DNA of 64,000 nucleotides from Promethearchaeota archaeon. GTDB lineage: Archaea > Asgardarchaeota > Lokiarchaeia > Sigyniarchaeales > Promethearchaeaceae. Shown here in pieces: positions 2,055 through 38,956 of this stretch. How positions within the stretch are numbered: position 1 is the first letter of the stretch; the number at the start of each line of letters is the position of its first letter. The stretch lies in NCBI GenBank assembly GCA_016933055.1, contig JAFGBS010000014.1, forward strand, positions 150,568-214,567, given 5' to 3'. The translations under genes and the position numbers were made by a program. The notes beneath the pieces were generated by a model, which was not told the DNA's origin, searched no databases, and was given only the letters and a program-made list of their open reading frames with translations.

Positions 2055-3032
2055 CTAATATTTATTTTTTTTATATCCTAAATCTACCAGCATACCGTAT
2101 ACCAGAGCTAAGGCATTTCGGGTTGAAATACCTTTATAGACTTCTTTCAGATCTTCAGTCCGGTGGAAAGAAGAGCGTTCTAGAAACAATTCTTGTATTG
2201 TAGCTTCTACTACTGATCTTGTTGCTTTGAATTTTTCGTAGTTGTTCTTTACGAATTCCCGGAAGATGGGAACAAACTTTATTTGGTCCTCTACAATTAA
2301 TTTTACATCTTTTAAGCTAGTTACGGCACCGTAATGGCAAAATCCTGCGTTTTCTATTTCTAAACCTTGTATTTTCTTTAAGGATTGCATGTATTCCTCA
2401 TAATTGAATTCAGTTGGCATGCTTGTAGGAAGTGTCAACAATTCTTCCTTATTAAAGAGCGTTCCTGCAGCCTCTCCAAAGTAGGAGAAATACGTAGAAC
2501 CCTCCATAAAAATCGTTGGACAGACATGATCCTTGGTGTGCCCAGGAGTAGAAATTAAAGATAGTTCCAGTTCTCTCTCTTCATCCAGCAGAATTTTGGT
2601 ATCAGGTTCAATTAATTGAAAAAATCGATCGGGAATCGGTTCCATTCTACCTACAAACTCTCCGTATGTTGATCTTGCTGCTTTAAGATGATTTTCCGGA
2701 TGTTGCAGATAGGTTTTATGGAGTTCCGTAGCTAAGATCTTTATTTTTGGATTATATTTCTCTAATTTTGTGAGAATCTTCCAACCAGCTCCAAAGTGAT
2801 CAAAATGATGATGCGATGGAATAAGATATTTCACAGAATCTCGGGAAATATGATGTTTCCTCATATAAGAAAGTACTTTGCGATAATCATCTGAAGTGCC
2901 TACATCGAAAATAATCGTCGAATTATCCCAATGCAGCAAAAAACTACTGGTAATTTTACTCATACCATATTGATTTAGATCTATTAAATGTACTGATTCG
3001 ATAAATTCTCCAGCAGTGGAAATGATTGGCAT
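2055..3032 (-). CDS. Metallo-beta-lactamase-fold hydrolase
   Basis: The 325-residue protein carries the metal-binding signature SHHHFDHFGAGW near residue 93, a second histidine in STPGHTKDH, and later FCHYGA, which can supply the last histidine. This places it in the broad metallo-beta-lactamase hydrolase superfamily, whose members bind two metal ions and cleave thioesters, esters or phosphodiesters or act as flavodiiron-type oxidoreductases. No flavodoxin domain follows, so a hydrolase is more likely. It has no signal peptide and is presumably cytosolic. The substrate cannot be told from sequence. It is transcribed toward the thiolase gene and divergently from the HEAT-repeat gene. Confidence 0.8.
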   Translation of the reverse strand: MPIISTAGEFIESVHLIDLNQYGMSKITSSFLLHWDNSTIIFDVGTSDDYRKVLSYMRKHHISRDSVKYLIPSHHHFDHFGAGWKILTKLEKYNPKIKILATELHKTYLQHPENHLKAARSTYGEFVGRMEPIPDRFFQLIEPDTKILLDEERELELSLISTPGHTKDHVCPTIFMEGSTYFSYFGEAAGTLFNKEELLTLPTSMPTEFNYEEYMQSLKKIQGLEIENAGFCHYGAVTSLKDVKLIVEDQIKFVPIFREFVKNNYEKFKATRSVVEATIQELFLERSSFHRTEDLKEVYKGISTRNALALVYGMLVDLGYKKNKY

Positions 3033-3165: not shown

Positions 3166-6087
3166 TTGAACCAGTCTCTCACACCCCAACTTAATGACGA
3201 AACCATCGATCTGATAGAATCCTATATAGCAAACCGAAATTATAATGATGTAATTGACATTTGTATCCAAATCGTTCAAGAAAACATCAAAACTCCCAAT
3301 AGAGAACAATTGTATGAAATAATTGAAAAAATTACCCTCATTTGTGATAAAACTCCTTTTATTGTAGACACCCTTGTCCCGTATCTGGGAGAGTTTTTAC
3401 AAGATTTGGATGAATGGCTAAGAACGGAATCCCTAATAATTACGGAAAGAATTAGTAAATATCGCCCCAACGTGTTAATTGAATTCATCCCCCTAATCAC
3501 CAATCGATTACAAGATGAAGATCAAAACAACCGTGAGATTGCTCTGAACATAATTGGAAATTTAAGTTTAAACCTACATCTTGATCGAGAGAATTTATTT
3601 ATCTTTATCCTGAATATGATGCAAGATAAATCATGGAAAATACGAATACGAGCAATCCAAATCAGTGAACAACTCCTAAAGAAAGAAAAAATACCAAATA
3701 AGAATCTTTTTCAAAAATATGTAGAAGGGATATCCAAATTAGTAGGAGATGAGGATGAGGAAGTCCAAGGTACTGCAATAGAAACACTCAAAAATATCAG
3801 TTTCTTGTTGGATTCCGAATCCTTTCTACAGATTACATCCCAGTTAGTAAATTCGTCAATTTGGCAAATAAGTGAGAAAGGAATTTGGTTGGTGGGGGAA
3901 GTAGGAGCAGATCAATATTCCAATGTATCATTAATAGCCCCCAGATTACCTAATCTCCTAAATAATCCTAATTTAATGATCCAAACAAAAGTAATTGATG
4001 CATTGGTAAAAATCGGTCGTGTACATACAGAAAAAATACTGGAGATCATTTTTAACAATGTGCACACTAAAGAAAAGGAGATTTATGACGGTTTATTCGA
4101 TATATTTTTGTATTTAGGAATAGAACGACCCGATGCAGTTCTCCAGCGAGCCTTTGAACATTTAGAAGACCCAGATCGTTCAATTCGGATGTTTATTTCA
4201 GATGTTCTAAACAAATTCAAAGAGGAAGCTGTGGGCAAAATCGAGGAACAAGTAGCGTCACTATTTGCACGTTTACGCACTACTGATTGGCGACAGCGGC
4301 AACATATTGTGGAAATTCTAGGCTCACTCAATGGTGTTATAAAGGTCAACAGTATTGCAGTGTGGTCTTATCTCACCCTTAAATCGATCTCAGAGAATGA
4401 GGTCGATCCTGAGGTTAAGGACACCATCCATTCAGCATTAGAACGGATACAGAGTTCCATTGATGATATAGAGATAATTATTAGAGAAGTTGAAGTACAT
4501 CAAAACTTCTTTTATCGTGAAATATTGGAATTACAGAATTTACCAAAACAATTACGCGACAATATGCTCATCATTATCGAAAAAAACGAATTTCGGGAAG
4601 CATTATTGATTCTGGAACGAGAAATAAATAAAGCTATCAAAAAAATCGAATCATTTGGGGATCGGTTAGATGAATATGAATACAAAAGATTAGCTGTGGA
4701 TTTAATAGAAGATTGGTCATATACTCGATTGGATTTATTGGAGCAAATAGGAGACATAAAAAATTATATTAAAGAGAGTGTAGAAAATGCAAAACAGCGA
4801 TATATTACCCAACTGTACGAGAAAATCCAACGAGTAAAAGCACGAATTGATGTATTGAAGTCTGAAATGGAAGACATCATCAATTTAAATTCCCAGCTAA
4901 AACATCTCATCCAAATAGGTGAAGAGGAACGTGCTAAGAAAAAATTGGAACACCTTGCATACATCCGAGATAAGATTTTTCGTTTAGAAGCAGAAATAGG
5001 ACAAATTTGGATTGAAAATCTTGATTTTAAAGAAGAACTCAAAGATATTACTCTATATTGGGTTAATGCAAAAATTGAAGCCCAACAATTATTGTATTCC
5101 ATAAGTTACAATCTGAAAAGTATCCATACCAGTTTTAAAGATAGTAAAAAACAAAAAAATGCACTAAAAAAGGAAATTTCCTTTGAACTATTATTAAATC
5201 AATATCAAAACTTAATTCTTCAGTCTAGCAGTAACGTCCGTGATCAGTTCGAGCGGTTTTCCATTATCACATCCCCTGTTGTGGACGAAATTAAAAAAGG
5301 GAGTTATGATAATGCGACAGATTTGCTAAAATTAACCATTTCCCAAACAGTCACTAGTATTCAAGATTTTGATAAGGAAATCATAAAAATTTATGATCAA
5401 TTAGATAAGATGGAAGGGGATTTTGAAAAATCTAAAATGATTCGGTCATATATGGAAGATTGGATTCAGATTAAAGATTCATTGATTGAACGTAGTAATG
5501 AATTTTTCCAGCAGACATCTCAAGACATCTTTTTCCATCGTATAATAGATCTACAAAAATACATCAATCCTATCCCTATTGATCTCTTAAGCAAACATTT
5601 GAAAACGGAATATACTGAATCTCAATTACTTGAAAAATTGTTTAAACTCATTGAAAATGGAACTTTACAAGGTAAGATCCGAGATAATAAGTTATACTTA
5701 CCCGAAAAACATCCTGAATACGAAAATGTATTACAGATTTCCAAAAAAATCGAAACTTTAGGTAATTTCGTTCATTTTAAAATACGGTTGCAAAATACAA
5801 CACGTCACTTCTTGCAAAATCTATCAATATTATTTTCTTGGCCGGTATTTATGGAACTCCAAGAAGAACGTAGTAAACCTAACTGGATGGAGATTAAGGA
5901 ACTTCAAGCGGAAGAAATCCAAATTTTTAATTGGGTATTGAAATATCGTCACGATAACATGATTAAATCCTCTGAACGATTGGGAGTAACTTCAAGAATA
6001 GGAGAATTAAAAGTTATTATACGCTATACCAATTTCTTCGGAGTTCAAAAGGAAATTCGAAAGGAACTTGAGGTGTTCATCCCATAA
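3166..6087 (+). CDS. HEAT-repeat / coiled-coil / winged-helix / beta-sandwich protein, adaptin-like layout
   Basis: A TTG-started protein of 973 residues. Residues about 50-430 are helical repeats of HEAT type, for example LQDEDQNNREIALNIIGNL and LEDPDRSIRMFISDVL. Residues 430-800 are long charged helices with coiled-coil character. Residues about 800-848 (PIDLLSKHLKTEYTESQLLE onward) look like a small winged helix of the kind that closes PCI domains. The last 110 residues are beta-rich, with HFKIRLQNTTRHFLQNLSI and LKVIIRYTN, and resemble an immunoglobulin-like appendage. There is no signal peptide or membrane segment. HEAT trunk, flexible middle and C-terminal ear is the layout of adaptor and coatomer large subunits. 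That likeness is my inference, not a family assignment. It may instead be a generic Asgard scaffold. Confidence 0.6.
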   Translation: MNQSLTPQLNDETIDLIESYIANRNYNDVIDICIQIVQENIKTPNREQLYEIIEKITLICDKTPFIVDTLVPYLGEFLQDLDEWLRTESLIITERISKYRPNVLIEFIPLITNRLQDEDQNNREIALNIIGNLSLNLHLDRENLFIFILNMMQDKSWKIRIRAIQISEQLLKKEKIPNKNLFQKYVEGISKLVGDEDEEVQGTAIETLKNISFLLDSESFLQITSQLVNSSIWQISEKGIWLVGEVGADQYSNVSLIAPRLPNLLNNPNLMIQTKVIDALVKIGRVHTEKILEIIFNNVHTKEKEIYDGLFDIFLYLGIERPDAVLQRAFEHLEDPDRSIRMFISDVLNKFKEEAVGKIEEQVASLFARLRTTDWRQRQHIVEILGSLNGVIKVNSIAVWSYLTLKSISENEVDPEVKDTIHSALERIQSSIDDIEIIIREVEVHQNFFYREILELQNLPKQLRDNMLIIIEKNEFREALLILEREINKAIKKIESFGDRLDEYEYKRLAVDLIEDWSYTRLDLLEQIGDIKNYIKESVENAKQRYITQLYEKIQRVKARIDVLKSEMEDIINLNSQLKHLIQIGEEERAKKKLEHLAYIRDKIFRLEAEIGQIWIENLDFKEELKDITLYWVNAKIEAQQLLYSISYNLKSIHTSFKDSKKQKNALKKEISFELLLNQYQNLILQSSSNVRDQFERFSIITSPVVDEIKKGSYDNATDLLKLTISQTVTSIQDFDKEIIKIYDQLDKMEGDFEKSKMIRSYMEDWIQIKDSLIERSNEFFQQTSQDIFFHRIIDLQKYINPIPIDLLSKHLKTEYTESQLLEKLFKLIENGTLQGKIRDNKLYLPEKHPEYENVLQISKKIETLGNFVHFKIRLQNTTRHFLQNLSILFSWPVFMELQEERSKPNWMEIKELQAEEIQIFNWVLKYRHDNMIKSSERLGVTSRIGELKVIIRYTNFFGVQKEIRKELEVFIP

Positions 6088-6138: not shown

Positions 6139-6149
6139 AGGGAAACAGA

Positions 6150-7187
6150 ATGAATCCAGAATACCGATTAACAGCTAAAACGCAAATTCATGGATGATCA
6201 TGTAAAGTATCAAAAGGTGCTCTCGAACGGATTTTAATGGGATCCGGGTTAGACTATTCTGCAGAAGATTGTGCCGTAAAACCGATTGGGAATAAGATAT
6301 TAGCCACAAACGTGGATATTTTTACTCCCATTCATGATGACCCTATTGTTCAAGGAGAAATCACCGCTTGTAACGCTACAAATGACCTATTTGCCATGAA
6401 TGTGATTGATATCATTATGTATCTGAGTTTCCTCGGAGTCCCGGTGGATCAACCAGAAGAGATCACTCAAGGGTTAATTAAAGGTCAAAGAAATTTTCTG
6501 AAACAATTTGGCGCCGATATAAATGGAGGTCATACAATTATCAATCCTTGGCCGATATCGGGGGGAATTGTAGTAGGAATCGCGGATAAAAAGGATCTGA
6601 TACCAAAACAGTTACGAACTACAGCCGATACAGGAGATTTGTTCATCACCAAACCGATCGGAATACAAGCAGCTATGGCAATATATCGTATACAAAAAGA
6701 TGAGGACAATGTCCTAAATGAATTATTCCCAAATGTGAAAAAAGTAACACTCGATAAAATGGTAGATACTGCGGTAGAAGTAATGCGGAAATCCAACCAT
6801 GAGGTGGCTCACATAATTCGAAAATATCATCTCAGAAATGGCATTGCCAGTATGACCGATATAACAGGATTTGGTTTGAAACAACACATAGAAGAAATAG
6901 TCCAAGGTACCCAATTCGACATCTCGATAAATACATTACCAATTATCGTGGGTACGGATAAAATATCTGATGGTTTAGGTTATGATCTCATGGGTGGATG
7001 TGCTGCAGAAACTGCGGGTCCAATGTTATTATGCATAGATCCTAATGAAATTGAACATGATGAAATCTTACGAGTGTTTCACAAGGAAAAAGTCCCGATT
7101 TGGAGTATCGGACAATATTTCAAAGGAAATGGAAAAGTGACCATCTCGCAAAATCCTAAGATCATTCAAGTAGAAAAAATAAATTAG
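6150..7187 (+). CDS. selD: Selenophosphate synthetase SelD containing selenocysteine (in-frame TGA at 6195-6197)
   Basis: SelD makes selenophosphate from selenide and ATP, the selenium donor for selenocysteine synthesis. The ORF track begins at an internal ATG (6237) because an in-frame TGA at 6195 closes the frame. Extending upstream gives MNPEYRLTAKTQIHG-U-SCKVSKGALERIL, which matches the start of the family (LT...HG-C/U-xCK). The TGA falls exactly on the catalytic Cys/Sec, three residues before the invariant lysine. The ATG at 6150 gives 345 residues, the normal family length. Downstream motifs are conserved: AEDCAV, ATNDLFAM, GGHT, LFITKPIG and MTDITGFGL. A structured element follows the stop directly. 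Recoding therefore explains the TGA better than a nonsense mutation. Confidence 0.9.
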
Positions 7188-7859: not shown

Positions 7860-9449
7860 TTGACTGAGGATCCTAGTAAATATACTGAAGATGACTGGCA
7901 TAAGCTCTATACAGAAGAAACTGGTAAGAAGGCAATATGGGGAGGTAAAATCACCAAACTGTATTTAACTTGGTTACAAAATAAAAAACAAGAGCTCGGT
8001 TTGGTTGATGAAACACCAAAATCAAAAGGGTCTACTAAAAAAACTAAAGAATCATCTACAATCAAACCAGAACCTTCAACCAAAGAAAAGCCGAAACTAA
8101 AAAAAAAGGAAGTAGAAACTGAACCTATTGCCCAAAAAAAATCTGAAGAAAAACCAACTGAAAAATCAAAATCAAAGAAGAAGAAAGGGGAAAAAGGATC
8201 AAGCCTCCAAGCAGAAACGAATGTTGGTATGGTGGGGCATGTAGACCACGGAAAAACAACGCTTGTTGATGCTCTTTCGGGTGAATGGACAGATAGATAT
8301 CAAAAAGAAAGAGAACAAGGTATAAGTATTAAATTAGGATATGCTAATTGCGTAATAGCTTATTGTCCAAGTTGTGATAAGTACGTAACCTACCATCTTG
8401 CTAATGCTTTAAAAAAAAAGAAACAAAAACGAAATACTTGCCCCGATTGTGCAGGAGAATTGACTTTTTGTAGGAAAATTAGTTTTGTGGATGCCCCCGG
8501 GCATGAAATCTTGATGGCTACTATGCTTAGTGGAGCAAGTTTAATGGATGGGGCATGTTTATTGATTTCGGCAAGCGAAAAATGCCCTCAACCTCAAACA
8601 CGGGAACACTTAGCAGCTCTAGATATTTCTGGTATCGATAAAATTATCATTGTTCAAAATAAGATTGATATGGTATCAAGGGAACGAGCAATTGAAAACT
8701 ATAAAGAAATTAAGAAATTCATTAAAGGAACAATTGCTGAAAATGCTCCAATAATTCCTATTTCTGCAATTTATAAAATCAATATCGAGGAAGTCCTTCG
8801 AAAGATTCAAGAAATAATTCCGACCCCCGATTTTGATGAAAACAAACCCCCACAATTCCATATAGCTCGAAGTTTTGATGTTAATAAACCCGGTACAGCG
8901 ATAGAAGAACTAAGAGGAGGAGTGGTTGGAGGATCAATTTCCCAAGGGGTGTTACAAATTGGAGATAAAATCGAGATCCGTCCTGGAATAAAACGTAGTA
9001 ATAAGTTTGAGCCATTAAAAACCAATGTGACCAGTATTTATCAAGGTGATATACCTTTAGATTCTGCACACCCCGGTGGATTGATTGCGATCGGAACAAC
9101 TTTAGATCCCTCATTAACAAAAGCGGATAATTTAATTGGGAACCTTGCTGGTATCATTGATAATCTTCCCGATGTTCAAAATCAATGTGAAATCGAAGTG
9201 CATCTTCTCGATAAAGTCTTAGGGGCTGAAGAAGAGATTGAGGTAACTCCCTTAAAAATTGGAGAACCAATGCTTTTAGTAACAGGCACATTATTGACCG
9301 CGGGTATCATCCAAAAGATTGGAAAGAAGAACAGAGTAGCTTTTAATCTCAAAAGACCGCTCTGCGCGGAAGTTGGAGCTACTGTGGCTATCAGTCGCCC
9401 CATTCGGAAGAGATACCGATTAATTGGTTACGGTATCCTCCGAACATAA
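7860..9449 (+). CDS. Translation initiation factor aIF2 gamma subunit with N-terminal extension
   Basis: aIF2-gamma is the GTPase subunit of the heterotrimer that delivers initiator Met-tRNA to the small ribosomal subunit. The G1 motif GHVDHGKT (about residues 126-133), switch II region DAPGHE, and NKID are all visible. The gamma-specific zinc knuckle CPSC...CPDC interrupts the G domain as in other archaeal and eukaryotic gamma subunits, and two beta-barrel domains follow. The odd part is roughly 118 residues before the G domain: a compact aromatic segment (YTEDDWHKLYTEETGKKAIW) and then a lysine/glutamate-rich linker. Most archaeal gamma subunits start almost at the G domain. The start is a TTG with little room for an alternative upstream. 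It converges with the E2 gene. Confidence 0.93.
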   Translation: MTEDPSKYTEDDWHKLYTEETGKKAIWGGKITKLYLTWLQNKKQELGLVDETPKSKGSTKKTKESSTIKPEPSTKEKPKLKKKEVETEPIAQKKSEEKPTEKSKSKKKKGEKGSSLQAETNVGMVGHVDHGKTTLVDALSGEWTDRYQKEREQGISIKLGYANCVIAYCPSCDKYVTYHLANALKKKKQKRNTCPDCAGELTFCRKISFVDAPGHEILMATMLSGASLMDGACLLISASEKCPQPQTREHLAALDISGIDKIIIVQNKIDMVSRERAIENYKEIKKFIKGTIAENAPIIPISAIYKINIEEVLRKIQEIIPTPDFDENKPPQFHIARSFDVNKPGTAIEELRGGVVGGSISQGVLQIGDKIEIRPGIKRSNKFEPLKTNVTSIYQGDIPLDSAHPGGLIAIGTTLDPSLTKADNLIGNLAGIIDNLPDVQNQCEIEVHLLDKVLGAEEEIEVTPLKIGEPMLLVTGTLLTAGIIQKIGKKNRVAFNLKRPLCAEVGATVAISRPIRKRYRLIGYGILRT

Positions 9450-11095: not shown

Positions 11096-14000
11096 TTATT
11101 TCTCAAACAGAATTTTTTCTTCTTCAAAAACTGGGATGATTTGTAATAAACTCCATGCACTATTGATCATAGAACTATAATTGATAGCCCTCGCATCAAT
11201 ATATAAGCTCAATAATTTTACTGGAAAGGTTTCTTTTAACACCTTTTCTGCAAAACCAATTCTTCCGAGGAAGTTATATAAGTATGATTTAATAGGATCG
11301 ATTGTTACTGATGATTTCAGTAAACTCAAGGCGCCCAATAATACTAGCACACTTACAGTATCATAATCTCGCTTAGCGGTTTGGTTAATTGCTAAATCAA
11401 AATACTCGGATGCAGCTTTCTGATATTCTTTATTCTTTAGAGCCTCCAATAGATTGCGATATACTAGCCGTTTTAATGCATTTCGCTTTCTGAATGAATC
11501 TTCCAGGCGTTCTTTATCCTCTGCTTTTCTTTTATTTAAAATCGAAAGTTGTTGTTTCTGTAACACCATAGATTCAGTTTCTTCTTGTTTTTTCTCAAAT
11601 TGGATTTTATTTATTTCAGTTCTCTTACTTGGGCTAATTTCATTAAGTAATAACCCTCGCTCAACATCTAATAATGGAAGGTATTTGTAAAATGCTTCTA
11701 GGATCAAATCTACTTTTTCTTCGTCTTGAAGTTGGTGAGAGACTAATAAAGCTTCGAGAAGTTTATATTCTGGTTTATTTTGGATGATATCTCGGGGCAA
11801 TGGGACCTCCATAATGGTTTTTTCAAGATTACGTTTTGCTTCCAATCTTTTTCCCACTTTAAGTAAGCAGATTACCCCCATCATTAAACTGATTGGGAAA
11901 AATTCCTCGTGATCGTTTTTTATTAGGAGATCTATACTATTGAAATATTCTCTTGCTGCATCCGTATAATTTTGGGTTCTGATATTATTATTAGCGTCTA
12001 ACCAATATTTATCAAGAAGTGTTCCTCGCTTTATCGACGAGATTTCCTTGGTTTTCAGTTTTTCAATGTGTTTATTGATTATGACCTCACTTATATGGGA
12101 AGGATCGAATTGATCTGGCTGGACTTTCTCTCCTTCTCTTTTATCAGGTTTGACTATTTCATGCAATGCATTTTTCTCTTCCCGAAACAGTGCTAAATTT
12201 TCAAATAATTTAATCGCTTGCAGATGAATTGACTGATCTGGATAATCCAACAAGGTAATGATGAAATCAACCACTTGGGAAACAAAACCTTGAGTTCTAT
12301 TATATTTTTTGCGTAAAGGAATTAATCCCTCTTTATTTTTTAATATGAAAAATAGGATTGTGATGACCGCAAGATCAATCTCAGCTAAATCCATTTTTCT
12401 TTGACTGAGTAATGATCCCATTTGTTTTTCATAGCCTTCTAGTGCTTTATCATAATTCTTATTATCCAATAGGTTCAAGAATTCTTGGTAATTTAATCTT
12501 TTATATCCTTGACGACGAGATAATGTGTCTTGTTGTCTTAACAATTCTTCTTGTGCCATCTGTCTGAGACGAGAGAGTTTTTCTACCATCATATGAATCT
12601 CTTCATCTCTCATTTTTTCCGCTTTTCTCTCCTTGTTAATTTCCTCCTCAATAGCATCAATCTTTTTGTGGATTCTCTTTTGAATGCCTTTATTTTTGAT
12701 TTTACTATTTATTAAAGAAGTTTCACTTAATTCTTTTAAAATATCTTTCAAGAAAGCCTCATCAAGCCCGAGTTTACTACCTGTTGAATTTGTCAATTCT
12801 TTTTCTTTCAGTTTGTTTTCCATTTGTGAAAGATGGCGTTGAGCAATTTCCTCTAATATAAAATCATAATCCAGAGGATCCCTCTCTGATAACCTTTGAT
12901 ATACCATTTCTGCTTGTTTAAGCAAATCCAGAACAGTTTGTGCTTCCTCCAAACCCGAAGAAGTAGCGAGTAGCTTTTTTGCTCTACCAGTGAGAAATTT
13001 TACATATAATCTTTCCAGATCCTTAGTTTCATCATATAATAAATGATTTCGATATAATTTTGCGTAATTTTCTAATATCTGGTTAACTTTGTCTAATGAT
13101 TCCTCACTTTCTGTTAAAATTTCAATTTTATTTTGAATTTTACCGATGCTACGCTTTAGATAATCCTCCCGTGTTTCATTTCGTAGATTTATCATTTCGT
13201 GAAGAAATGGTAAAAACATTCCTGAATCTAAATATAAATCCAGTAAATGAATCAATAGTTCGTTATTGATCTTAGCATGTCCTACATTTTTGAACCAATC
13301 TGCACGTTTTTTAATTTCAGAAGTTGCTTCTAATATTTTATCCGCTTTTTTTAATTCCTCGATCTGTCTATATAATTTTTCATTAGCTTGGATAAATTCA
13401 GTTTTTTCTTTTTCTACATATTTCTTTAATACAGAAATAGCATTAGTGTAATGAGTTATTGCCGAATCAATACGATTTTTGCGATATTCTTCTTCAGCAG
13501 ATTGTCGTAATTCTGTTAATTCTTTTTGAATAGGATATGACTGTACATAATTGATCAATTTATCCACAATCGAAAATTGGTTTTTGTTCAGAAATAGTAT
13601 GGCAATACTGCGTATACTATCATCTACATCCTCTCGATCAATGTGGAAGGTCTCCCAAATGTTGAATAACTCTTCAAGAGTAAGATTTGCTGAATCAGGA
13701 TCATTTTCCTTAATATATTGATTTAGTAAAATTCTGAGTACAATGACAATTTTCTCACCCAGTATTTTAATTTCATCGAACAACCCCATCCTTTGATACT
13801 TATCTATTGTAAAATACAATTGCCCTTTTACAATATCATAACGTTTTTCTTCAATTAACCGATCCACTGCTCTTGCTATACCTGGAGTTAAGTCTTGCAT
13901 TAATTCCTTTTGTTCTTTGAAGTCCAATTTCTCCATCAATTGGAACGCATTTTGAAATTCAGTTGAGGTAATCCACGTAGTTATTGCTAATTTTAGGGAC

Positions 14001-14869
14001 TTCTCAGCTAGCTCTTCATCATTTAGTTCTATAGATGCGTATAAATATGCTTTCTCAAACTTTTCTGCTGCTGTGTGATATCTTTTCATATTGAACAGGC
14101 GGGATCCTTGATGAACAAGATTTTCTACATAGATACGGACAAATTTCTCAGAATAAACACTAACTCCTTGTAACACAGTGGACGCTTTCAAATATTCTCC
14201 CGATTTATAATATAACCATGCAGCTTGTTCTGCATTTATGAAATAATCTTGTTTTGAGAACTTTTTCTTCATGTTGGTTAAAATTTCAGCAAGATTCCCC
14301 GCATCCTCATATCGTTCATCTACAAGCAACCGATTGATTTTTTCCATGAAAAAGGGAATTCTCATCCATGCAGTTTCTACGTTAATAGGGATATTTCCAG
14401 TTATCATTGCTTCCGAAAGACATTCTAATACTTCATAAAATGTATTTTTCGAATAAAAATCAAACACAAATGCCTCAATGAGATAATTTTCCCATATGTA
14501 TTCTAACAGGAAGTTGGATGGAACATAAATTAATCCGCTGCGAGTGTAGAACACCACAATAATAGGTATAGTTCGACCCAATTTCTGAATAATATCTATT
14601 ATTAATTCGAATAACTCAAATTGTTGCACATCGTTAGGATCCAAGAAGTATAAAATGCCATCGGAAGTAGGAATAATACTGTCGAAATCAACTGTAGAAC
14701 TTAATACAACATCAATATCAATAACAGCTTGATCTGTTCCCACATTAACTCCTCTATTCCACCGGGAAATCTCATGATCCTTAAATTGGTGGTTCAATTT
14801 TCCTGTTTTTATCAATTGTAGACCAAGATTTGAATCACCTAAACTCAGTACTTTGAAGATATACCTCAT
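11096..14869 (-). CDS. Degenerate small-GTPase-like domain fused to about 1100 residues of helical (TPR-like) repeats
   Basis: The N-terminus FKVLSLGDSNLGLQLIKTG mirrors the first strand and P-loop of Ras-like GTPases (GDSxVGKT), but the lysine and serine/threonine that bind phosphate are replaced. The region to about residue 165 keeps an alternating strand/helix pattern (DGILYFLDPND, IPIIVVFYTRSG, AFVFDFYSKNTFYEVLECL) without an NKxD motif, so nucleotide binding is doubtful. The remaining 1100 residues are helical pairs of TPR type (EQAAWLYYKSGEYLKASTVL, GSRLFNMKRYHTAAEKFEKA) with a highly charged coiled-coil section near 740-830. No signal peptide or membrane helix is present. It is likely a cytosolic scaffold. 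The precise family is unrecognised. Confidence 0.6.
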   Translation of the reverse strand: MRYIFKVLSLGDSNLGLQLIKTGKLNHQFKDHEISRWNRGVNVGTDQAVIDIDVVLSSTVDFDSIIPTSDGILYFLDPNDVQQFELFELIIDIIQKLGRTIPIIVVFYTRSGLIYVPSNFLLEYIWENYLIEAFVFDFYSKNTFYEVLECLSEAMITGNIPINVETAWMRIPFFMEKINRLLVDERYEDAGNLAEILTNMKKKFSKQDYFINAEQAAWLYYKSGEYLKASTVLQGVSVYSEKFVRIYVENLVHQGSRLFNMKRYHTAAEKFEKAYLYASIELNDEELAEKSLKLAITTWITSTEFQNAFQLMEKLDFKEQKELMQDLTPGIARAVDRLIEEKRYDIVKGQLYFTIDKYQRMGLFDEIKILGEKIVIVLRILLNQYIKENDPDSANLTLEELFNIWETFHIDREDVDDSIRSIAILFLNKNQFSIVDKLINYVQSYPIQKELTELRQSAEEEYRKNRIDSAITHYTNAISVLKKYVEKEKTEFIQANEKLYRQIEELKKADKILEATSEIKKRADWFKNVGHAKINNELLIHLLDLYLDSGMFLPFLHEMINLRNETREDYLKRSIGKIQNKIEILTESEESLDKVNQILENYAKLYRNHLLYDETKDLERLYVKFLTGRAKKLLATSSGLEEAQTVLDLLKQAEMVYQRLSERDPLDYDFILEEIAQRHLSQMENKLKEKELTNSTGSKLGLDEAFLKDILKELSETSLINSKIKNKGIQKRIHKKIDAIEEEINKERKAEKMRDEEIHMMVEKLSRLRQMAQEELLRQQDTLSRRQGYKRLNYQEFLNLLDNKNYDKALEGYEKQMGSLLSQRKMDLAEIDLAVITILFFILKNKEGLIPLRKKYNRTQGFVSQVVDFIITLLDYPDQSIHLQAIKLFENLALFREEKNALHEIVKPDKREGEKVQPDQFDPSHISEVIINKHIEKLKTKEISSIKRGTLLDKYWLDANNNIRTQNYTDAAREYFNSIDLLIKNDHEEFFPISLMMGVICLLKVGKRLEAKRNLEKTIMEVPLPRDIIQNKPEYKLLEALLVSHQLQDEEKVDLILEAFYKYLPLLDVERGLLLNEISPSKRTEINKIQFEKKQEETESMVLQKQQLSILNKRKAEDKERLEDSFRKRNALKRLVYRNLLEALKNKEYQKAASEYFDLAINQTAKRDYDTVSVLVLLGALSLLKSSVTIDPIKSYLYNFLGRIGFAEKVLKETFPVKLLSLYIDARAINYSSMINSAWSLLQIIPVFEEEKILFEK

Positions 14870-19926: not shown

Positions 19927-20473
19927 CCAATATGGGAGTTCCCGAAAAATATTTTCACAATTATTATTACCCTACAATCCAACTCCTGAAGATTTGATAC
20001 GAACAGTCTTGCATGAATTAACGGTCAAGAAAGGACAAGTTTTATACGATTTAGGTTGCGGTGATGGTCGAGTCTTACGAATAGCAGCAGAAGAGTTTGG
20101 ATTACATGCAGTGGGATATGAAATCGATACTACACGAATCCAAGTATGTCGAGAAACGCTTAGAAGTCTTCCTCTCAAGATTCAAAAAAAAATTCGGATA
20201 TTTGAACAAGATTTATTTACGGCTGACCTAAACAAGGCGGATTTAGTGTACATTTATGGATTACCAGACGTATTTCCCTATCTCGTCCATGTTATCCAAA
20301 CTTGCCAACCAGATACCATACTTATACTTGTTTTATATGAACCAGGTGAAACTGTGAAGAGAGAGATGGGAATTGTGATTGAGAGAAAAATATCTATTCG
20401 AAATGCTAGTTGGTTCGCATATATTGCTAAAAAAATGGAGAAAGAAAACAGTGGCGCCGCGACCGGGATTTGA
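19883..20473 (+). CDS. Class I SAM-dependent methyltransferase, FAM173-like
   Basis: Residues about 50-65 contain the SAM-binding loop VLYDLGCGDGRVLRIAAEE, followed by GYEIDTTRI (acidic residue that binds ribose) and ADLVYIYGLPDVFPYL. The pattern YxPTPEDLIRTVL just before the SAM loop, and the GLP segment, resemble FAM173/ATPSCKMT lysine methyltransferases, which in eukaryotes modify membrane-embedded ATP synthase subunit c. The target here is unknown. It overlaps the upstream membrane protein gene by 44 bases. Its stop codon falls inside the tRNA-Asp gene on the opposite strand, so the last seven codons, including the stop, are antisense to the tRNA 3' end. That is either a real overlap or a run-on of the frame. 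Confidence 0.75.
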   Translation: MKMKWIKIRRNRKINQYGSSRKIFSQLLLPYNPTPEDLIRTVLHELTVKKGQVLYDLGCGDGRVLRIAAEEFGLHAVGYEIDTTRIQVCRETLRSLPLKIQKKIRIFEQDLFTADLNKADLVYIYGLPDVFPYLVHVIQTCQPDTILILVLYEPGETVKREMGIVIERKISIRNASWFAYIAKKMEKENSGAATGI

Positions 20474-20560
20474 ACCCGGGTCCAAGGAGATCTGCAAGAT
20501 CGTCGAGAACTCTCAATCTCATGACAGTCCTCGATGCTCACCGAACTACACTATCGCGGC
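20452..20560 (-). tRNA. tRNA-Asp (anticodon GTC) with a 32-base intron
   Basis: On the reverse strand, GCCGCGA pairs with TCGCGGC as a full 7-bp acceptor stem, followed by discriminator G and encoded CCA. The D stem is GTGT/GCAT, the anticodon stem GAGGA/TCCTT, the anticodon loop CTGTCA-C with GTC, and the T arm CCGGG-TTCAAAT-CCCGG. Between position 37 and 38, the canonical archaeal intron site, there are 32 extra bases (20490-20521). Removing them leaves a 77-base tRNA including CCA. Splicing would need the archaeal endonuclease acting on a bulge-helix-bulge. I can see GAGAT/ATCTT pairing there, but did not model it. Confidence 0.92.
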
Positions 20561-22603: not shown

Positions 22604-23422
22604 GTGAGTGAGAAAACAATGGAAAAACAATTTTTAGAACAATCTAGAATTAGTGATAAATATCTGAAGAAGTTCAATCTCGTGATGTTTTTTTTGCACT
22701 TCGTTCAAGCATTGACCATGCTTTTACTCGGACTCTTCGTAGCACAGATAAGAGATTTTGAATTGCCCATTACAACGACCTATCTACAATTCATTCCAGG
22801 ACCAGACATTTTAGTACCGAACTATCAAACTATTGGATCAATTCCTATAGGACCAATTGTATCTTCTTTCTTGTTCCTATCAGCATTGGCACACTTCTTG
22901 ATAGCAGTCCCCTTCAACAAATTCTACAATAAATCTTTAGATAAACATGTGAACTATTTCCGATGGTTTGAATACGCTTTAAGTTCTTCAGTAATGATCG
23001 TACTGATTGCGATGTTCTTTGGTGTTTATGATCTATCAAGCTTGGTTCTGATTTTTGGCGCAAATGCAACAATGAACTTGCTGGGATTAATGATGGAGAT
23101 TCATAATCAAACAACCAAGAAGACCAGTTGGATTGCGTTCAACATCGGTTGGGTAGTTGGATTACTTCCATGGGCAGTAATAATACTTTATCTACTTGGA
23201 AATAATGTATCCTTTAGTCAAGTCCCCTGGTTTGTATGGGCTATCTTTTTCAGCTACGGTGTCTTGTTCTTTACATTCCCGATCAATATGTTCTTACAAT
23301 ATAAGAAAGTAGGAAAGTTTCAAGATTACCGTTTTGGAGAAAGAGGTTATATCATCCTATCACTCGTTGCAAAAACCCTTCTAGCATGGTTAGTTTTTGC
23401 TGGAGTTTTACAACCTTCTTAA
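22604..23422 (+). CDS. Heliorhodopsin
   Basis: Heliorhodopsins are seven-helix retinal proteins with inverted topology, long photocycles and no clear pump activity. The 272-residue protein has seven hydrophobic segments. The retinal-binding lysine is K257 in helix 7 (LSLVAKTLLAWLVF) and the Schiff-base counterion glutamate is E123 in WFEYALSSS. The stretch NATMNLLGLMMEIHNQ and the PWAVIILY, FPINMFLQYKK and DYRFGERGY segments match family landmarks. No retinal-synthesis gene (15,15'-dioxygenase, lycopene cyclase) is nearby. The GTG at 22604 opens the frame; an ATG at 22619 preceded by GGTGAGTGAG is also plausible. An AT-rich TTAAATAAT about 30 bases upstream may be its TATA box. Confidence 0.93.
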   Translation: MSEKTMEKQFLEQSRISDKYLKKFNLVMFFLHFVQALTMLLLGLFVAQIRDFELPITTTYLQFIPGPDILVPNYQTIGSIPIGPIVSSFLFLSALAHFLIAVPFNKFYNKSLDKHVNYFRWFEYALSSSVMIVLIAMFFGVYDLSSLVLIFGANATMNLLGLMMEIHNQTTKKTSWIAFNIGWVVGLLPWAVIILYLLGNNVSFSQVPWFVWAIFFSYGVLFFTFPINMFLQYKKVGKFQDYRFGERGYIILSLVAKTLLAWLVFAGVLQPS

Positions 23423-33697: not shown

Positions 33698-36265
33698 ATG
33701 TCTAATAATTTTCAAATTATTGAAGGATTTGCGAGTACAGACGCCAAACCTCATTATCCTCCTAACTTGCAATTAGAACCCATACATCAGGCTATTAAGC
33801 TGACCTTTAATTTAGAAAAGAAAATTGCATGGGGATCTGTGACCACTACGATACGTGCAAATTCTGATAATGCAACAACAATAAAATTTGATGCCATCGA
33901 TTTCACGATCAAATCTGTACAAGGAGCGGATTCCTATTCTTATGATGGCGAAAAAGTCACCATGACATGGAATACTGCTTGGAAGAGAGGGCAAATTCAA
34001 GAAATAGTTATTCAGTATTCAATTGAAGAACCCCTATCTGGATTGTATTTTTCTTATCCCGATGATAAATATCCTAACCGAATAGCTTATGTAGTAACGG
34101 ATCACGAAACAGAACGTGCACGCTATCATATTCCATGCATAGATCATCCCGCGATTCGCTGTTCTATTGATTTTTATCTGACTGCAAATGAGAAATATAC
34201 AATTCTTGCAAATGGAAGGTTAATCGAAGAAGGTAAGAATGGCGACGGAACTAAAACAGCCCATTGGAAGCAAAAATTCCCTTGCCCTTCCTATTTGATT
34301 ACTTATGCAATTGGAGAGTTCGTAAATTTCACCGATAGTGTGGTAGATGCAGGTAAAGGGTCCATTCCCATTGCTTATTTTACGACTAATGACTTCACAT
34401 CTGAAGCCCTTAAGCGTACCTTTGATAGAACTCCCGAAATGCTTGAGTGGATGACGAAGAAATTTAAATGCCCCCTCGAATGGGATAAATACTACCAAAT
34501 TATTACTCCTCATTATGCTGGTGCCATGGAAAATATCTCAATGGTAACTTGGGGATCCTTTGCACTGTTACATACCGAGGATGTTGCGAAGGAGTTATGG
34601 TGGAGAATAGATGCTATTAATGTCCACGAGATGTCACATTCGTGGTTTGGAGATATGATTGTTATTAGAGAGTTTACCCACGGATGGCTTAAGGAGTCTT
34701 GGGCTGTATACACCGAAAGTTGCTATTATGAAGATACGAGAGACGAGGATGAATGGAAATATAATATGTATAATAATTCACTTAGATACAGAGAAGAATC
34801 TGACTCAAAATATGCCAGACCAATTGTTAATAAGACATATGATAGCAGTTGGGATATGTATGACCGTCACTTGTATCCAGGTGGTGCATGGAGGATTCAT
34901 ATGCTTCGGCACTTGATAAAAAACCATGTAAGTGATGAGTGCTTCTGGGAGGCTGTATCAGATTATTTGAACACCTATAAAGGGAAAGTAGTTGAAACTA
35001 TAGATTTTCAGCGAAAACTAGAAGAACACTCCGGATTAAGTCTTCAATCGTTTTTTGATCAATGGTTATATTCTCCCGGTTATCCAAAACTGAAAGTTAA
35101 ATTTAACTTTGACGAGAAATCTCACTTAGCATCTCTTAAACTTGACCAAACACAAATTGATGAGAAAAAAAACATTGGTGTATTTCAGTTTCCCCTGGAA
35201 ATTATGTGGGAAACAGAGAATGGATCGTTTGAACGGGAAAAATTCATTATTTCTGAAAAAGTGCAAACCTTGTATTTCAAATGTGTTAAAAAACCCAAGC
35301 AGATACGTATAGATCCTGATTATGTACTATTATGCTCGTTAGAATTCAATCCAGGTACAGACATGCTAAAACAGCAATTGAAAACGGGTGATAGTATTGC
35401 GAAAATCCAAGCAGCAAAGGAATTAACAAAAACGGGAAAGAAAAAAGACTTGGAAACCGTATTTCATGCGTATCGGGATGAAAAATACTGGGGGACTAAA
35501 GTGGAGCTAGCGAAATTATTGAAAGAGTCTCCCTCTTTATACGGAATGCGTCTTCTTAGGGATTTATTAGAAGACGAATCGGATCCATTAGTGCTGACTT
35601 CCTTGATTCATAATTTTGCAAATGTCAGGGAATTCTTTGTATTTGATGCAATGAAGAACTATTTAAAACGACCTGTACACTATCCCTATGCTACAGCCAC
35701 TGCTTTAGAAGTAATTGGCACTATGCGAACGGATGAAGCGTATAAATTTTTAAACACCTATTCCCCACCTAAGGATCCTAAAAATATCGTTAAATCGGGC
35801 TTATATCGAGCAATAGGGAGTATTCGTACTGAGCAAGCTCTCGAATATCTGGTAAAGAAGATCCCATACGGTGAAGACGCAGAAAATTGTCGTTCAAGTA
35901 TAGCTTCTGCTCTTATTTCCTCTCTGAGTTGGATGAAGGAATCCGTAAGGAATCGGTATCTGGAAAAACTAACGGATATCATCCCCGGAGAGACTAACGA
36001 ATTATTCTTGCATAATTTAGCTCGAATTATAAGCACCGTTAAGGATCCCTTGGTAATTACTGCGTTGAAAACGATTAAACGAAAACTAGCGAAACAAGAT
36101 AAACCAGAGATCGATCGATTAATCCAAAAAGTACAGAAAAGCTTAAGTACGGAAGAAGAAATTCGAAATCTAAAATCAGAAATAGATTCTGTTAAGAAAT
36201 CATTGAAGAATTTGAAAGAAGTGGTAGAAAAAATCGAAGCGAGAACAGCACCGGAAAAAAAATAA
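33698..36265 (+). CDS. M1-family zinc aminopeptidase
   Basis: M1 enzymes remove N-terminal residues from peptides. The 855-residue protein has the substrate loop HYAGAMENISMVTW and the zinc motif HEMSHSWFGDMIVIREFTHGWLKESWAVY, in which two histidines and the glutamate 19 residues later bind zinc. The N-terminal beta-saddle (residues 1-200) and the C-terminal region are in place. After the catalytic domain a HEAT-like helical tail (about 560-820) ends in a coiled coil with a lysine-rich tip. No signal peptide is seen, so it is probably cytosolic. An ATG at 33698 follows a short gap from the DUF4091 gene. It is an ordinary member of its family. Confidence 0.95.
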   Translation: MSNNFQIIEGFASTDAKPHYPPNLQLEPIHQAIKLTFNLEKKIAWGSVTTTIRANSDNATTIKFDAIDFTIKSVQGADSYSYDGEKVTMTWNTAWKRGQIQEIVIQYSIEEPLSGLYFSYPDDKYPNRIAYVVTDHETERARYHIPCIDHPAIRCSIDFYLTANEKYTILANGRLIEEGKNGDGTKTAHWKQKFPCPSYLITYAIGEFVNFTDSVVDAGKGSIPIAYFTTNDFTSEALKRTFDRTPEMLEWMTKKFKCPLEWDKYYQIITPHYAGAMENISMVTWGSFALLHTEDVAKELWWRIDAINVHEMSHSWFGDMIVIREFTHGWLKESWAVYTESCYYEDTRDEDEWKYNMYNNSLRYREESDSKYARPIVNKTYDSSWDMYDRHLYPGGAWRIHMLRHLIKNHVSDECFWEAVSDYLNTYKGKVVETIDFQRKLEEHSGLSLQSFFDQWLYSPGYPKLKVKFNFDEKSHLASLKLDQTQIDEKKNIGVFQFPLEIMWETENGSFEREKFIISEKVQTLYFKCVKKPKQIRIDPDYVLLCSLEFNPGTDMLKQQLKTGDSIAKIQAAKELTKTGKKKDLETVFHAYRDEKYWGTKVELAKLLKESPSLYGMRLLRDLLEDESDPLVLTSLIHNFANVREFFVFDAMKNYLKRPVHYPYATATALEVIGTMRTDEAYKFLNTYSPPKDPKNIVKSGLYRAIGSIRTEQALEYLVKKIPYGEDAENCRSSIASALISSLSWMKESVRNRYLEKLTDIIPGETNELFLHNLARIISTVKDPLVITALKTIKRKLAKQDKPEIDRLIQKVQKSLSTEEEIRNLKSEIDSVKKSLKNLKEVVEKIEARTAPEKK

Positions 36266-37034: not shown

Positions 37035-38813
37035 TTACATACTAGGACGCATATGCTGAGGAGGAGGTCTTAAACAGAAGCCACATTTACCAAAAGAGAT
37101 TATGGTCTGATTCCAGCAGTGTTCATGATATAAGCGTTCGCAACTTGGGCACTGAGTTTGACACTGATCATGAGAGTCACCAGTACTGGATGAGATCTTC
37201 AACCCACATTCGGGACAATCTATTTTATGGCAGATAACACAACTAAGTATGGATTCAGCGAAGATTGTCTGAGATATCTGATTGAAAAGATCAATTAAGT
37301 AGTTAAAAGGATGCCATTGCTGGGTAAAGGACTGAATTTGATTGTTGATTTTTTCTTTTATTTCTTCATACTCTTCCAATGCTGATAGAAGCTTGAAGTG
37401 AGGAACTGTTATTGGATATTCATCATTCATTTGGACCTCGAATGTGAATGCCAGATCTTTAGTTTTTAGTTGACCAGATATTTCAATTGAAAATTTGTCG
37501 GTAGTTTTATCATAATCAACCTTTTTTACTCCCCCTTTCAGTAGATCTACTTCAAAACTTATGCGAGATGCCTTGTCAACCAACCAAGAAATCTCTCGTA
37601 ACACATCCACAACGTGGCTCTCTTTTCTCTTCCAATTTTTTAATACCATCAGATCTTGAGGGGAAAAAGGAAGGACTTCTTGCAATGCTGATGAAAACTG
37701 AACTAAAGGCTCGTTAGGATATTTTGAAATATCTAATGTAAGAATATATTCTTTAAATCCGTATGTAAATAAACCTACTTGAAGATGGGAAATTAAACCA
37801 TCTACCATTTCTGTCTTGTATTCCCCAAAGATCATTTTAGCCTCCTGTTCAATGTCACTCAAAAACCAAAGTTTTCCCTCAACCTCCCGAATTAATTCCA
37901 CAACATGACGGGGATTGTTCTCATCCCATGACTTCAAGATTCCAATAGATTCGTCAACATCCCCAAGGATCTTTCTTAAATTATCTTGAACCACCACTTC
38001 TGGCTTCTTTGGAAACGAAGAAAAGTCAATACGAATGATAAAAGTCTGTTCGAGAGTAATCGTAAGATACACTTCCACAACTCCCATAGTATTTCCAACA
38101 TAATCAATAGCGTATTCTTGCTGAATTAGCGCGGCTTCGGTTGATACTTTTACATCCAGTTCGGCATCTAAATTTTGTGCTTCGATGGACGGATATATAG
38201 GTCGTTCGGTGGGGGTGAGTGCGGGTACATTGTAAGGATCTGCTGAGGGATCCAAAGTTGGGTAAATGGATTCATTCTCTGGTACCTCTTCTTCGGAATT
38301 CCATTCTAAAATTTCATCGGGATTGATATATTCCTCTTGTTCATATAGATATTGACTCATATCGGGAGTGAGATATTGTTCCTCTTCATCCTTTTCTTGT
38401 TTATACGATTGTGATGACAATTCTTCCGTACTGAATTCTGCATAGGTAGGTTGGACAGATGGTTCCTCAGTAGATATATATATTTCCTTCTCCTCTTCTT
38501 GCTGTTCAACATAATTTTTAATTAGTACCGCTAATTCTCGTACTGCTGTGACTACATGACTTTCAGGAGTCCAATTATTCAATGCATTAAGTTCAATTTC
38601 CTCCGGAACATTGGGAATTGGGAGGGGAAATATAAAATCTGGTGGGTAAGTAGGAAAATCTTTGGTATATTTTATCTCTAAAGGATATTTTGTTTCCTTA
38701 TTGGGGGATTCATAAATGTATCCATATAAATGTCGGAGATTTCCTTTAACCATATAAAACTTGAATTCGGAAGCAATTAATTGTGCTTCATGGAGTAATT
38801 TTCCATTTTCCAT
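37035..38813 (-). CDS. Multi-RWD (E2-like fold) protein with C-terminal RING/PHD-like zinc domain; possible ubiquitin-ligase-like protein
   Basis: Numbering follows the track frame (M1 at 38891); I prefer the ATG at 38813 because a TATTTAAG box sits about 30 bases upstream. Four UBC/RWD-like repeats (about 27-130, 253-344, 346-438, 441-545) share a closing signature: WTPESHVVTAVREL, WDENNPRHVVELIREV, WKRKESHVVDVLREI, WHPFNYLIDLFNQI. No cysteine occurs in the first 550 residues, so none is a catalytic E2. An acidic, tyrosine-rich linker (131-250) separates repeat 1. The last 68 residues hold CVIC, CPSC, H-x2-C (YHEHCW) and KCGFC, a C-x2-C/C-x2-C/H-x2-C/C-x2-C cross-brace. E2-like fold, RWD repeats and C-terminal RING is the architecture of eukaryotic FANCL. 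That kinship is inference. Confidence 0.75.
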   Translation of the reverse strand: MENGKLLHEAQLIASEFKFYMVKGNLRHLYGYIYESPNKETKYPLEIKYTKDFPTYPPDFIFPLPIPNVPEEIELNALNNWTPESHVVTAVRELAVLIKNYVEQQEEEKEIYISTEEPSVQPTYAEFSTEELSSQSYKQEKDEEEQYLTPDMSQYLYEQEEYINPDEILEWNSEEEVPENESIYPTLDPSADPYNVPALTPTERPIYPSIEAQNLDAELDVKVSTEAALIQQEYAIDYVGNTMGVVEVYLTITLEQTFIIRIDFSSFPKKPEVVVQDNLRKILGDVDESIGILKSWDENNPRHVVELIREVEGKLWFLSDIEQEAKMIFGEYKTEMVDGLISHLQVGLFTYGFKEYILTLDISKYPNEPLVQFSSALQEVLPFSPQDLMVLKNWKRKESHVVDVLREISWLVDKASRISFEVDLLKGGVKKVDYDKTTDKFSIEISGQLKTKDLAFTFEVQMNDEYPITVPHFKLLSALEEYEEIKEKINNQIQSFTQQWHPFNYLIDLFNQISQTIFAESILSCVICHKIDCPECGLKISSSTGDSHDQCQTQCPSCERLYHEHCWNQTIISFGKCGFCLRPPPQHMRPSM

Positions 38814-38956
38814 TTTGAATACCCGAGTTTTTGAATAATAAAGGCTTAAATAGTGCTTTATATCTTGTCCAACAACAAAAAGTGAAGACAATAACTATAA
38901 AATACCGATATGTCTATAAACTGTACAAAAAAAGGGAAAAAAGAAAATCTCATCAT

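Follow-up and report, generated by a model that had tools for sequence, protein, structure and literature searches.

Does a single archaeal chain that carries a HEAT-repeat trunk and an ear-like domain belong with the large subunits of the adaptor (AP) and coatomer (COPI) complexes, and could it represent an ancestral vesicle-coat scaffold? This possibility was raised by a first-pass annotation of an ORF in the 64,000-nucleotide stretch of Lokiarchaeial DNA analysed here (the window). We refer to the product of this ORF as the HEAT-ear protein. From N to C terminus it comprises a HEAT trunk, a helical arm, a PCI-type winged helix and an appendage-like ear, which are encoded as follows.

3166..6087, + strand: whole HEAT-ear gene, 973 aa, TTG start, stop codon at 6085-6087 (ORF, orthologs, predicted structure)
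3196..4458, + strand: HEAT/HEAT-like solenoid of helix pairs, residues 11-431 (Pfam HEAT_2/HEAT; AlphaFold2 [AF2] pLDDT mostly 85-95)
4468..5553, + strand: long-helix arm, residues 435-796, with a 77-residue helix at 507-583 (AF2 DSSP)
5554..5709, + strand: PCI-type winged helix, residues 797-848 (Pfam PCI in orthologs, AF2)
5716..6084, + strand: appendage/GAE-like Ig beta-sandwich, the "ear", residues 851-973 (Foldseek/VIA, sub-threshold Alpha_adaptinC2)

A conserved gene of one Lokiarchaeial order

Judged by sequence comparison, the ORF is a real gene, with ortholog matches far beyond chance (E down to 1e-277 for full-length orthologs). It is present as a single copy in its own genome, and 73 of the 83 genomes in the class contain a match (E<=0.001), in most cases a full-length protein of ~970 aa. 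When genome contigs were queried with an alignment (a single-sequence query matched nothing), named GTDB contigs yielded 53 loci, every one from a Lokiarchaeota/Lokiarchaeia MAG, with Prometheoarchaeum and Harpocratesius represented. By the first-start rule, the first start is TTG in 44 of these 53 orthologous loci. Across the phylum, strong matches were confined to four families of the same order (f1-f4, the HEAT-ear family), and the weak matches beyond that order cover the HEAT positions alone. Within the order, orthologs diverge to ~15% identity; the f4 members L119, L121 and L122 share only 14-15% overall identity, yet retain the same length and domain order.

The whole-chain AF2 model, built from a 36-sequence alignment, has a mean pLDDT of 84.5 and a pTM of 0.54, which indicates that the domains are well predicted and their relative placement is not. 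The domain order, its conservation, the predicted folds and the sharing of the tail with other Loki proteins (described below) are established for the HEAT-ear protein.

Trunk, arm and whole-chain resemblance

That the N-terminal region is a HEAT trunk is confirmed by Pfam HEAT matches in 16/16 orthologs, by matches of the protein itself (HEAT_2, 3.1e-12; HEAT, 6.9e-11) and by the predicted solenoid. Whether this trunk is related to adaptins is less clear. Adaptin_N matches 7 of 16 orthologs (best 2.4e-12), and the ORF gives the best single-stretch Adaptin_N match of its whole genome (1.4e-7), a match below the 37-bit cut-off. Adaptin_N is also the top Pfam match of ortholog L121 (4.3e-7, with plain HEAT at 0.2). 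A diversified HEAT-ear profile aligns to AP-3 delta, its best adaptin match, in one stretch over residues 10-324 (1.4e-16). However, a control family of unrelated Loki HEAT proteins (A5; L126-L128) matches AP-2 beta at 1.8e-19; since this control scores higher, the likeness between trunk and adaptins looks generic. The search of the HEAT region thus returned an adaptin match and no specificity. The trunk is HEAT; at the level of sequence it is not demonstrably adaptin. The top phmmer match of the single protein, PP2A-A, was set aside as a generic HEAT match. The control proteins are themselves a membrane-anchored HEAT family of ~1120 aa found in Loki and wider Asgard archaea.

Structure comparison of the whole model favors proteins outside membrane traffic. 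Foldseek places INTS4 (1.5e-11) and INTS7 (9.8e-11) first, above the adaptins, followed by karyopherins, SF3B1, CAND1 and PP2A-A, so that a better match to a nontrafficking family does exist, albeit by what appears to be a generic solenoid. The VIA alignment with INTS4 (8rc4_d) extends across model residues 1-973 and includes 490 aligned residues, at Z 18.2 and 13.6 A. INTS4 combines HEAT repeats, a helical region and a C-terminal beta-sandwich (PMC7980224, PMC9006982), and Integrator INTS4/INTS7 therefore resemble the HEAT-ear protein in HEAT solenoid, helical middle and C-terminal sandwich (for INTS4, as these papers describe it). One reading of this whole-length alignment and shared domain order is that the protein is an Integrator-like scaffold that, as INTS4/INTS7 do, holds metallo-beta-lactamase (MBL)/beta-CASP RNA nucleases or polymerase-associated factors. 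Karyopherins lie within ~40-fold in E, however, and the rmsd is large, which together imply that the INTS4 match mostly reflects a generic solenoid. In the sequence-profile search INTS4 (2.6e-11) falls behind the adaptins, AP-3 delta included, and control family A5 matches INTS4 too (3e-10). No INTS4 or INTS7 chain is among the 50 matches listed for the tail model, an absence that does not amount to exclusion. We consider the Integrator-like reading very unlikely. The adjacent MBL protein (2055-3032) was considered as an INTS9/11-type partner and rejected: it is a small, hydrolase-type MBL with no beta-CASP match.

Between trunk and tail, residues 435-796 are predicted to be helical (long helices at 507-583, 587-617, 619-657, 665-696, 714-748 and 753-796; pLDDT blocks of 63-91), and AF2 predicts no disordered or flexible hinge between trunk and ear. 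The middle had been annotated as a coiled coil. Its long helices are borne out, but its heptad periodicity is no better than the 99% shuffle level; a classical coiled coil was rejected on this basis, and since the heptad signal is weak, "helical arm" is the safer name.

The winged-helix and ear tail

The PCI-like winged helix that had been proposed ahead of the ear is well supported by the orthologs and the AF2 model, and PCI is the best sequence-supported domain of the tail. Pfam PCI matches 32 of 36 orthologous C-termini (E<=1; best 1.3e-5), the window's own match reaching 15.8 bits against a 22-bit cut-off. The match spans positions 28-74 of the 84-position profile, which is the winged-helix part alone.

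The ear is predicted as ~8 strands within residues 856-972, and the sandwich ends the chain. When the tail (786-973) was modeled alone, the same elements were recovered at a pLDDT of 85.0. Comparison of this predicted structure with the PDB placed adaptin and COPI ears among the best Foldseek matches: yeast GGA2 GAE (1.6e-5), TMEM106B (1.6e-5), BBS9 (4.0e-5), COPI appendage (6.9e-5), AP2 alpha ear (1.4e-4) and AP1 gamma ear (1.4e-4). By hand count, 28 of the best 50 matches are GGA GAE, gamma-ear, AP2-alpha ear, COPI appendage or BBSome chains. VIA-align gave BBS9 a Z of 12.1 (2.1 A over 99 residues) and AP2 alpha 10.8 (2.0 A over 100 residues), alongside other Ig-like folds (TRAP-beta, 11.6; GPI transamidase, 11.0; integrin, 10.9). 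As matches within 1 Z count as ties, an appendage type is favored and not proven. On the models, then, the last ~110 residues probably form the appendage-type sandwich that had been anticipated, with other Ig-like folds close behind.

Sequence searches of the ear are supportive at most. Alpha_adaptinC2 matched at E = 0.02 among the orthologous C-termini and 0.041 in a genome scan, where the ORF is the best match of its own genome, and it never exceeded the gathering score (15.6-15.8 versus 27.6 bits). This profile gave 24 matches in 24 genomes, diverged orthologs in G081 and G082 included, and control genomes also match it at the same lax threshold. The tail profile searched against PDB sequences found little beyond the PCI domain of eIF3e (0.11) and similar matches, leaving the ear without a sequence-level match there.

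The tail is not confined to the HEAT-ear family. A winged-helix and ear profile uncovered a second, patchy Loki family of ~600 aa, whose members carry trunk, winged helix and ear, and no arm.

L137:807-2624: armless ~600-aa paralog
L138:674-2284: armless ~600-aa paralog
L139:630-2441: armless ~600-aa paralog
L140:385-2181: armless ~600-aa paralog

These paralogs have the same trunk as the HEAT-ear protein (E to 6e-20), and the top Pfam match of L137 is Adaptin_N (2.5e-7). The ear profile also matches the Ig domain of L145, L146 and L147 (iE ~1e-5), where it follows serial PCI winged helices (PCI ~1e-16 in L145 and L146; 1.1e-16 in L146). L146 weakly matches GAE_BBS1 (0.12), and in L141 the profile detects a relative of the HEAT-ear protein's ear behind TPRs. 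The tail profile matches on several protein types indicate that the combination of winged helix and ear recurs in Loki proteins as a module borne on different scaffolds. The armless paralog family and the sharing of this tail with other Loki proteins are new here.

From their domain types, L141 and L145-L147 are possibly Asgard appendage/ESCRT-type proteins, resembling those that Makarova et al. 2024 (PMC10936438) describe as joining appendage, Vps28-C, longin and HTH/PCI domains. The HEAT-ear protein could by extension be an ESCRT-linked cargo adaptor that feeds cargo to ESCRT and forms no coat, its tail being the module of Asgard ESCRT-associated multidomain proteins. The profile matches to L145-L147, with serial PCI winged helices and then an Ig domain, and the proteins of Makarova et al. 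speak for this reading. Pfam finds no Vps28-C or steadiness-box domain in the ORF, however, and the conserved neighborhood holds no recognizable ESCRT gene, and we regard an ESCRT link as rather unlikely.

Neighborhood, partners and comparison with known systems

Conserved neighbors of the HEAT-ear gene are housekeeping genes, and we rejected the neighborhood as functional evidence. The downstream one is selD.

6147..7187, + strand: selD (selenide, water dikinase), with an in-frame TGA (Sec) at 6195-6197; its start probably lies ahead of the listed ORF (6237)

The TGA falls in the motif HGUSCK, so the selD product is probably a selenoprotein. selD comes after the HEAT-ear gene in 40 of the 48 loci where this could be tested and is the one conserved neighbor that still adjoins it in the window's genome; the two are probably not functionally linked. 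A MaoC-like gene precedes the HEAT-ear gene in 34/49 loci, behind NOG1, hydantoinase-like and amino-acid-kinase genes, and in four loci an aIF2-gamma homolog lies directly upstream. No trafficking gene was found in the conserved neighborhood (NOG1, MaoC-like, amino-acid kinase, SelD).

These neighbors (aIF2-gamma, NOG1 and SelD), together with PCI being the best-supported domain of the tail, would fit a generic HEAT scaffold of a housekeeping complex (translation, proteasome-lid-like or RNA), for which PCI would be the telling domain and the ear a convergent Ig-like domain. Against this, Ig folds abound in the PDB, yet in Foldseek the appendage type accounts for more matches than all the rest of them, and the HEAT-ear gene is order-specific, unlike housekeeping complexes; we judge such a scaffold unlikely.

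The search for partners gave mixed results. No sigma-type partner was found in the genome, which is 91% complete (Clat_adaptor_s, best E 0.34). The mu-type profile Adap_comp_sub had no match in the genome, but its control matched nowhere either, making this result uninformative. Arf-family GTPases gave 46 matches, so possible recruiters exist in the genome.

Several other features of the window were recorded.

7860-9449, + strand: aIF2-gamma, 529 aa, with a lysine-rich N-terminal extension of ~110 residues
9474-9983, - strand: E2 ubiquitin-conjugating enzyme
11096-14869, - strand: 1257-aa protein; by eye, its N terminus resembles a degenerate small GTPase, and helical repeats come next (ANAPC5, 4.8e-5)
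20455-20560, - strand: tRNA of 106 nt, probably with an intron, found by Rfam and missed by ARAGORN
22604-23422, + strand: heliorhodopsin (Pfam, 2.2e-92)
33698-36265, + strand: M1 peptidase with a TAF2-like Ig domain (5.1e-6) and C-terminal HEAT repeats
37035-38891, - strand: 618-aa protein with E2-like and RWD-like stretches

The reading we prefer, at about even chances, is that the HEAT-ear protein is a soluble, cytosolic adaptor or scaffold protein specific to one Lokiarchaeial order, whose one-chain combination of trunk and ear works like a large adaptor subunit. In such a protein the HEAT trunk would offer a large binding surface, and the helical arm, given its predicted geometry, would hold the trunk away from the tail. 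The winged helix and sandwich would recruit partners, probably through short peptide motifs, as is the case for GAE/appendage domains in eukaryotes.

The large subunits AP-1 gamma, AP-2 alpha, AP-3 delta and COPI gamma likewise carry an N-terminal HEAT trunk and a C-terminal appendage sandwich in one chain. The HEAT-ear protein differs from them in its helical arm in place of a disordered hinge, its extra PCI winged helix, its lack of a platform subdomain, its lack of a detected sigma partner and its unspecific trunk match. A platform follows the sandwich in alpha, beta and gamma-COP and is absent in gamma-ear/GGA; in the AF2 model the last strand ends at residue 972, and no platform follows. 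The adaptor/coatomer-like order read into the sequence thus holds in the predicted structure for trunk and ear, but the hinge is replaced by the arm. Because hinge and platform are lacking and the trunk is not demonstrably adaptin, we class the protein, on its predicted structure, as adaptor-like in build and not as an AP/COPI member; a role in vesicle traffic is hypothetical.

So is the proposed ancestral coat. The appendage-type ear on which it depended is present in the predicted structure, but the step from ear to coat stays conjectural, given a trunk match that looks generic, the lead of INTS4/INTS7 and karyopherins over the whole chain, and the failure to detect a sigma partner or conserved trafficking neighbors. 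That the protein is a one-chain, pre-heterotetramer relative of AP/COPI/TSET large subunits, with the fusion already made in archaea and the armless ~600-aa paralog nearest the ancestral form, seems to us quite unlikely.

A single Ig-like sandwich without platform is what the ear shares with GGA/gamma-ear (GAE) and with BBSome BBS9 and BBS1; GGA2 GAE is among its top Foldseek matches, and BBS9 is its best VIA match. In those proteins the GAE domain is preceded by VHS-GAT (GGA) or by beta-propellers (BBS9/BBS1), unlike the HEAT trunk here. The Asgard ESCRT-associated proteins likewise place an appendage-like Ig domain beside winged-helix/PCI domains but carry Vps28-C, longin or a steadiness box, and the available part of their description (PMC10936438) does not include a HEAT trunk with arm. 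Lokiarchaea HEAT proteins have already been annotated as adaptin-N-like, among the asCOG "adaptin N heat repeats domain" ESPs (PMC9834061); that annotation concerns the HEAT part alone, unlike the trunk-and-ear reading given here. A literature search that lay mostly outside subscription journals and bioRxiv found no paper naming HEAT trunk, arm, winged helix and ear together. According to Eme et al., the AP domains of Asgard archaea occur unfused to one another. The HEAT-ear family is a candidate exception, since a HEAT trunk joined to an appendage-like ear in one conserved chain would unite two of these domains. The host lineage, a close relative of eukaryotes, has cultured members, so experiments could address whether adaptors built of trunk and ear are older than the coats of eukaryotes. 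Even if the likeness is convergent, it would mean that the adaptor architecture arises readily from parts that Asgard archaea already had.
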